NCBI GenBank assembly: GCA_040756905.1
Contig: JBFLYD010000058.1
Coordinates: 1 to 64,000, forward strand
Direction: 5' to 3'
Origin: Acidobacteriota bacterium
Lineage (GTDB): Bacteria > Acidobacteriota > Aminicenantia > JBFLYD01
Length of the DNA stretch: 64,000 nucleotides
Positions 25,533-28,500 of this stretch are shown in pieces. Numbering within the stretch: position 1 is the stretch's first letter; every line of letters starts with the position of its first letter. Made by a program: the position numbers and the translations under genes. The notes below the pieces were generated by a model, which made no database searches, was not told where the DNA came from, and saw only the letters and a program-made list of their open reading frames with translations.

Positions 25533-28500
25533 ATGGAATTGATTAAAGAACCGCTGAGGTAATTGAAACGCTTTTACTCTCATTTCTTCTCTGACTTCCA
25601 TTTTTTATGGAATTGATTAAAGAACCGCTGAGGTAATTGAAACAACCACGAACTCCAGCTGCTCGCCCTCGTAGGGGACGTAGTCATGGAATTGATTAAA
25701 GAACCGCTGAGGTAATTGAAACTTTCTTATTAATTTGGAAGCATTACTTTCATGGTCTTTAATGGAATTGATTAAAGAACCGCTGAGGTAATTGAAACAG
25801 GTCGAAGTATTTTAATTTACCCAAAAATTTTTTTATGGAATTGATTAAAGAACCGCTGAGGTAATTGAAACTATTTGTTTTTGGAGGCGAACTGTTTCCT
25901 GATCTCATATGGAATTGATTAAAGAACCGCTGAGGTAATTGAAACAGAAGATTCTCTTTCTCTTTTCGATGGATAATATCTATGGAATTGATTAAAGAAC
26001 CGCTGAGGTAATTGAAACACCACGACCGTTTTCATTGTTTCCTCCTTTTTTTTGAAATGGAATTGATTAAAGAACCGCTGAGGTAATTGAAACCCTGAAA
26101 TCCCAGCATGGGCTTTTGCGAACCGCAAAGATGGAATTGATTAAAGAACCGCTGAGGTAATTGAAACTGCGATGGCTCGCTCCCACTTTTTGGGTTTCTC
26201 CACAATATGGAATTGATTAAAGAACCGCTGAGGTAATTGAAACGAAATCCACCTGTCCAATATTGTCTGATTATTCCCTGAGAATGGAATTGATTAAAGA
26301 ACCGCTGAGGTAATTGAAACTAGTGAAAGCTTATGAAGAAAAATGGGTTTATGTAAAATGGAATTGATTAAAGAACCGCTGAGGTAATTGAAACTATTTC
26401 TCTACACTTCTCTATAATTGCGTTTTTAAAATGGAATTGATTAAAGAACCGCTGAGGTAATTGAAACCCTTTTCCCCATTTGTTTTTTAGTCTTTTCATT
26501 TCTCCTATGGAATTGATTAAAGAACCGCTGAGGTAATTGAAACCGGAGAGGGCGGGATTCGAACCCGCGCTCCAATTATTCAATGGAATTGATTAAAGAA
26601 CCGCTGAGGTAATTGAAACCACAAATGTCGGGGCGAGAGGATTCGAACCTCCGACCCCAATGGAATTGATTAAAGAACCGCTGAGGTAATTGAAACTTGA
26701 TATGTTGCCAGAAATCGGCGCCTTCTTTTTATCGAAATGGAATTGATTAAAGAACCGCTGAGGTAATTGAAACTTATTTCACCTGACTTATCTAGGGCGG
26801 CTGCTCCCAATGGAATTGATTAAAGAACCGCTGAGGTAATTGAAACGTCACCTCCTTTTTTTTGGAATCAGCTTCTTATTAAATGGAATTGATTAAAGAA
26901 CCGCTGAGGTAATTGAAACACTTGGAGCCCCTCTATCTCCTTAATAACATCGGAATGGAATTGATTAAAGAACCGCTGAGGTAATTGAAACCTTTTAACT
27001 CCCAGATGTTCTTCAGTCCATACTCTTGATGGAATTGATTAAAGAACCGCTGAGGTAATTGAAACAAGGTGTCCGAAAGCTATAGTGACTCCCTCGAAGT
27101 ATTCATGGAATTGATTAAAGAACCGCTGAGGTAATTGAAACAAAAAATGCAGAAATTAACCGCTTCCTTTATTTAAAATATGGAATTGATTAAAGAACCG
27201 CTGAGGTAATTGAAACAGCCCTTCTCTTTTCCCTAGAGGCTCTATTTCTTCCTCAATGGAATTGATTAAAGAACCGCTGAGGTAATTGAAACTGTTCATC
27301 GATAATCACTAAGGATACATCCATCAAAGCATCATGGAATTGATTAAAGAACCGCTGAGGTAATTGAAACAAAAAATTTTTTCATTTTTCCTCCTCCTTT
27401 ACCTTTTGGTGGATGGAATTGATTAAAGAACCGCTGAGGTAATTGAAACCTTTGAAATGTTCTTACATATACAGGCTCGCCATTTTCATTCATGGAATTG
27501 ATTAAAGAACCGCTGAGGTAATTGAAACACTCTTTTCTCTCCTGAATGTTCAGGAGAGTCTCCAAAAGATGGAATTGATTAAAGAACCGCTGAGGTAATT
27601 GAAACACCTCCTTTTATATTATACCCTTGTGTGTAATATGAGAACATGGAATTGATTAAAGAACCGCTGAGGTAATTGAAACCCCATTTTCCCCTTGCAC
27701 ATATGCCACGTAATATGTAGCAATGGAATTGATTAAAGAACCGCTGAGGTAATTGAAACGCCACGTAATATGTAGCATATGCGGAAACCCCTCTAATAAT
27801 GGAATTGATTAAAGAACCGCTGAGGTAATTGAAACGCCATCTTACCGTAGGTGACGGGGATTCCCTGGTCTTCATTGCATGGAATTGATTAAAGAACCGC
27901 TGAGGTAATTGAAACGTGACGTATACGTGTTCCCCATGTTTAATGGGTTCAATGGAATTGATTAAAGAACCGCTGAGGTAATTGAAACGCGGTTGGTTTT
28001 ATTGGTTGGTGGGTTTGGAGTAAGTATGGAATTGATTAAAGAACCGCTGAGGTAATTGAAACTTTTTTCTTGGGTCACTATCGAGTTAACAATATCGATA
28101 ATGGAATTGATTAAAGAACCGCTGAGGTAATTGAAACACTATATAGCATGCGTAAGGTCCAGGGATTTGAGCAAGATGGAATTGATTAAAGAACCGCTGA
28201 GGTAATTGAAACACGCTTGAGAGCAATTGATGGTGGTTCGATGTATGGAAGGACAATGGAATTGATTAAAGAACCGCTGAGGTAATTGAAACACCAAGGG
28301 CTTATACCTGATGCCTTTTTGCCAAATTTGATGGAATTGATTAAAGAACCGCTGAGGTAATTGAAACCTCGAGGAACGAGCCCTCTGAATGGCTTCAGCT
28401 GCCATGGAATTGATTAAAGAACCGCTGAGGTAATTGAAACATGTCTACATGAGCTTGAGCCCAATAGACCATCCGGGCGGCATGGAATTGATTAAAGAAC

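Follow-up and report, generated by a model that had tools for sequence, protein, structure and literature searches.

The 3' halves of tRNA genes are common places of integration for phages and other mobile elements, and Paracoccus phage Pyei1, whose annotated attP lies in tRNA-Pro(TGG), is a described case. CRISPR spacers with a perfect match to the chromosome of their own host have been reviewed as well, including those at type III loci that contain a reverse transcriptase (RT) (Wimmer and Beisel, PMC6990116). Moreover, RNA-derived spacers of RT-Cas1 systems are known from Marinomonas mediterranea, Fusicatenibacter saccharivorans and Vibrio vulnificus; the Marinomonas RT-Cas1 extends the 3' ends of RNA by 1-6 nucleotides, mostly A/G, prior to integration (PMC11014452), and active interference selects against antisense spacers derived from the host (PMC5576922). 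In the literature searches made, no published case turned up of a spacer that stems from a tRNA attachment site. Here we describe a type III-D locus with an RT-Cas1 fusion in a window of 64,000 nucleotides (contig JBFLYD010000058.1 of the Acidobacteriota assembly GCA_040756905.1), the array of which carries two adjacent spacers, 14 and 15, identical to the 3' parts of two host tRNA genes. On balance, and by a small degree, we favour the reading that both are records of mobile elements that integrate at the 3' ends of host tRNA-Ser(GCT) and tRNA-Pro(TGG).

According to Padloc models the system is of type III-D, with Cas10, a Csx10/Cas5 subunit, a Csm2-type subunit, several Csm3-type subunits and a weak match to Csx19 (Table 1). 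No HD domain was found in the Cas10, and one of the Csm3-type subunits keeps a plausible catalytic aspartate by our own reading of its sequence. The RT motif of the RT-Cas1 fusion, at residues 225-228, is YADN where YADD would be expected; nearly all surveyed relatives have two aspartates at this position, and YADN recurs in three of them (L135, L145 and L168). RTs that have lost the second aspartate are often impaired, and polymerases with GDN exist; given the YADN motif, the RT activity of this fusion is uncertain. Within the type III operon, positions 20629-22411 of the window additionally encode a phosphorylase-superfamily protein (PNP_UDP_1) and a 322-aa protein for which no family match was obtained, and the region downstream of RT-Cas1 (31648-38591) encodes a VWA-domain protein, a Tubulin_2 protein of 1044 aa, an AIG2-like protein and an SDH-type protease that is phage-family-related. 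A second array of the genome (G000:C15:162-7198, L078; G000 denotes the host genome) comprises 96 spacers, none of them T-arm-like, and has a separate Cas1 that lacks an RT.

Table 1 Coordinates of the array, the spacers and their host tRNA matches, and the type III-D genes (window positions, unless a G000 contig is named).
Feature	Position	Strand	Remarks
CARF-HD effector	11136..13163	+	
Cas10	13166..14656	+	496 aa; GGDD motif present
Fused Cas7-like + Csx10/Cas5 (III-D) subunit	14658..16457	+	
Csm2-type small subunit	16458..16862	+	
Csm3-type Cas7 subunits	16846..20016	+	16846-17646, 17621-18691, 19090-20016
Csx19, weak match	18681-19115		E 3e-4; among the Csm3-type subunits
Csx1/Csm6-type CARF-HEPN effector	22459..23757	+	
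Cas6	23758..24729	+	
Cas2	24680..24973	+	
CRISPR array	25533..29125	+	37-nt repeats; 46 spacers between intact repeats, one more before the truncated last repeat
Spacer 14	26544..26582	+	antisense to the 3' half of host tRNA-Ser(GCT), variable arm to discriminator G73
Spacer 15	26620..26659	+	8 nt CACAAATG, then 32 nt antisense to the 3' half of host tRNA-Pro(TGG)
RBS-antisense spacers 7, 13, 18, 25, 28	26019-26056, 26468-26506, 26847-26882, 27371-27412, 27606-27645		
RT-Cas1 fusion	29246..31558	+	770 aa; RVT_1, GIIM and Cas1 domains
tRNA-Ser(GCT) gene	G000:C59:20718-20810	minus	contains the spacer 14 match
tRNA-Pro(TGG) gene	G000:C43:8613-8688	minus	no CCA encoded; contains the spacer 15 match

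The 37-nt repeat of the array (ATGGAATTGATTAAAGAACCGCTGAGGTAATTGAAAC) has no further copy elsewhere in the genome. Its degenerate repeats lie at the right end, which places the leader on the left, and spacers are numbered from the leader side; the positions, repeats and numbering that an earlier note on this DNA had given for spacers 14 and 15 proved right on re-analysis. Spacer 14 is identical over its full length to G000:C59:20721-20759 (39/39, BLAST E 1.3e-12) and ends at discriminator G73, directly before the CCA that the tRNA-Ser(GCT) gene encodes. Spacer 15 is identical to G000:C43:8613-8644 (32/32, E 8e-9) as far as discriminator A73, beyond which it continues with 8 nt, CATTTGTG in tRNA sense, that are absent beside the host tRNA-Pro(TGG) gene: the host trailer is TT, followed directly by tRNA-Arg(TCT). 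These alignments bear out what had been read from the letters alone, namely a serine-type acceptor ending at its G discriminator, a proline-type acceptor with an A discriminator and no CCA behind it, and an antisense orientation of both crRNAs to tRNA. As the 8 nt do not adjoin the host gene, spacer 15 is no plain copy of the host tRNA or pre-tRNA.

When all spacers were searched against the host genome, exact matches were obtained for spacers 14 and 15 only, and together with window shuffles this rules out chance as the origin of the matches. Likewise, across 687 spacers from this array and related loci a real T-arm is present in just these two, and a loose T-arm pattern occurs in three further spacers against 2.3 expected from shuffles. 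Both matches lie in host tRNA genes and, at 39/39 and 32/32 to the host alleles, take in far more than the universal T-loop; this rules out the two outcomes that would have refuted the earlier note, namely mere T-loop similarity and matches confined to non-tRNA loci. The exact 30- and 31-mer tRNA cores are found in 0 of 141 other genomes of the class, indicating that the spacers carry the lineage's own tRNA alleles. Elsewhere in the array, spacers 29 and 30 (window 27683-27798) overlap in GCCACGTAATATGTAGCA on the same strand and are therefore two adjacent acquisitions from one locus; their merged pattern GCCACGTAATATGTAGCATATG had no match in IMG/VR. Five spacers (7, 13, 18, 25 and 28) are antisense to sequences resembling ribosome-binding sites, some with a start codon. 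This antisense bias was considered as a mark of RNA capture and proved uninformative, as it is equally seen in type III arrays without RT.

Under the favoured attachment-site origin, the source elements would be temperate phages or integrative elements, each carrying a copy of a tRNA 3' half as the core of its own attachment site, and a spacer cut from such a site would also match the host tRNA gene. The cut for spacer 14 would have fallen wholly within the core, and that for spacer 15 would have run 8 nt beyond the core end into element sequence (CATTTGTG); the fragment may have reached the Cas1-Cas2 module, RT domain included, either as DNA or as a transcript that spans the site. A fragment that crossed the core end would give spacer 15 its non-host flank, and spacer 15 departs from the host sequence exactly at A73. 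Furthermore, other genomes of the class keep tRNA-Pro and tRNA-Arg in the same tandem, which argues that CATTTGTG is no ancestral trailer.

Viral sequences are consistent with this. In IMG/VR, 52 stretches contain the 31-nt tRNA-Pro core without a mismatch, and 31 of its 53 sites are partial tRNAs that start at about the anticodon loop and reach the 3' end, the span of an attP or attR, which makes them attachment-like; in several of these contigs the core lies close to both ends, the arrangement of an integrated phage. For tRNA-Ser, a core of 26 nt was found in 28 IMG/VR stretches, some of them partial, and the annotated attP of Pyei1 overlaps the spacer 15 match. To judge from the partial tRNAs in viral contigs, the two spacers cover the part of the tRNA that serves as an attachment core. 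Comparison of phage records with the other spacers returned only the tRNA-Pro matches. The host itself bears tRNA 3' ends that integration has duplicated: 145 bp of the 3' part of tRNA-Phe recur on another contig, each of the two copies having tyrosine integrases nearby, and the 3' end of tRNA-Gly(CCC) is present as a 37-bp exact duplication, 195 bp apart (G000:C54, ~39214 and 39409), which is likely the scar of a lost element. Directly 3' of tRNA-Ser(GCT) we found a decayed integrase fragment, 84% identical over 45 aa to another host integrase, and a cation transporter gene of higher GC; outside the array, the tRNA-Ser 3' end was not found a second time in the genome.

Several observations weigh against the attachment-site origin. 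In the tRNA-Phe and tRNA-Gly duplications identity extends past the tRNA end, whereas spacer 15 diverges exactly there. Comparison with phage and plasmid records matched the tRNA part of the spacers and left the non-host flank unmatched. In IMG/VR, CACAAATGTCGGGGCGAG had no exact match, nor had spacer 15 together with its flank or the longer spacer patterns, and no mobile element with either tRNA copy and the right flank was found in IMG/VR or in the phage and plasmid records. For that reason we put the attachment-site origin forward as the best-supported source only and do not assign the spacers to that class. In addition, an attachment core makes up an estimated 0.1% or so of a typical phage genome, so that two adjacent spacers from such cores are unlikely under random sampling. 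Spacer 14 on its own cannot be told from a copy of the host sequence, and the element origin of either spacer is itself something that we infer.

The main rival, possible and less supported, is that RT-Cas1 and Cas2 captured 3' fragments of the host's own tRNAs, with the tRNA 3' end joined to the repeat, the tail of spacer 15 being non-templated or template-switched and the antisense guides surviving because folded tRNA is a poor target. We hold this to be rather doubtful. In its favour, each of the spacers lies at the 3' end of a tRNA, and a neighbouring pair of attachment-site spacers is improbable under random sampling. An abundant RNA source would suit two different tRNAs in neighbouring spacers; both host alleles are exact, the discriminator is where spacer 14 ends and where the identity of spacer 15 ends, an RT-Cas1 adjoins the array, and non-coded 3' nucleotides are described for RNA-derived spacers of RT-Cas1 systems (PMC11014452). 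The tails fit that description poorly, at 8 nt and T-rich in spacer 15 and 0 nt in spacer 14 against 1-6 nt and A/G-rich (PMC11014452), and CCA is missing from spacer 14 though encoded in tRNA-Ser(GCT). The YADN motif, with the uncertain RT activity that it brings, counts against this rival as well, as does the record of other spacers: none was tRNA-like beyond chance among 640 others surveyed, of which about 370 are RT-associated, and with the 96-spacer array included this leads us to reject a general capture of tRNA by RT-Cas1. Nor did any spacer match the available rRNA, that is, host 23S positions ~1029-2912 and the 16S of two class relatives; the host assembly is without 16S and part of 23S, which limits this comparison, and rRNA-derived spacers as a sign of RNA capture were absent within that scope. 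At G000:C22:27940-29712 (L362), a 23S rRNA match spreads 742 model positions over 1773 bases, so that the gene probably contains an insertion of about 1 kb. Capture from tRNA or pre-tRNA by RT-Cas1, raised as a possibility in the earlier note, has thus come out with less support than the integration sites at tRNA ends that were named there as an alternative.

Ordinary self-acquisition of host chromosomal DNA would explain spacer 14, which is fully identical to a host gene and needs no other source, but spacer 15 is not contiguous in the host genome and no other spacer has an exact chromosome match, so we consider this source improbable. We think it still less probable that a large phage or plasmid gave rise to the spacers through tRNA genes of its own. 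Some phages do encode tRNA-Pro or tRNA-Ser; the stretch examined of one viral contig has 23 tRNAs, including tRNA-Ser(GCT), and a single tRNA-rich phage could yield two adjacent tRNA spacers. Against it, the tRNA-Pro genes annotated in reference phages are only ~85-94% identical to the aligned part of spacer 15, and identity to the host over 39 nt (variable arm included) and 32 nt, with exact copies in 0 of 141 other class genomes, points to host alleles or to attachment cores kept identical to them.

How the host tolerates such guides is a separate matter. The earlier note had suggested a look for a flank complementary to the crRNA handle, and of the 8 nucleotides that follow the spacer 14 target in the tRNA-Ser gene only 2 pair with the 5' handle, which makes the usual self-protection inapplicable. 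By computation tRNA-Ser(GCT) folds strongly, and the self-complementary guides would be tolerated because mature tRNA is folded, aminoacylated and protein-bound. It is conceivable, though we give it very little credence, that guides 14 and 15 guard the host tRNAs, the Cas10 complex binding infection-cleaved tRNA or integration-altered pre-tRNA, but not intact folded tRNA, and signalling through cyclic oligoadenylates to Csx1 and the CARF-HD effector. The guide that is complementary over 39 nt to the host's own tRNA-Ser sits in a type III system whose Cas10 appears intact and which has signalling effectors; with 13 spacers on its leader side, spacer 14 has, by the usual order of acquisition, been kept while the array grew. 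The locus is thus a natural setting in which to test whether type III surveillance overlooks tRNA that is folded. A word of caution is due as well, as an exact host tRNA match in an RT-Cas1 array is in itself no proof of RNA capture, since integrative elements carry the same sequence.

Compared with described systems, the locus shares features with each and differs from each. Spacer 15 has the same T-arm and acceptor portion as the attP of Pyei1 in tRNA-Pro(TGG), with one mismatch over the aligned 30 nt; unlike that attP, the copy here sits in a CRISPR array and its source element was not found. As in Marinomonas, Fusicatenibacter and Vibrio, an RT-Cas1 stands beside a type III array and antisense spacers are possible, but here the T-rich tail measures 8 nt, YADN stands in place of YADD in the RT, and there is no sign of capture of other host RNA. 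Finally, like the self-matching spacers reviewed by Wimmer and Beisel (PMC6990116), which include RT-containing type III loci, spacers 14 and 15 match the host chromosome perfectly over their tRNA parts, whereas here the two are adjacent, both cover tRNA 3' halves, and one is a hybrid that joins 32 nt of host tRNA to 8 non-contiguous nucleotides.
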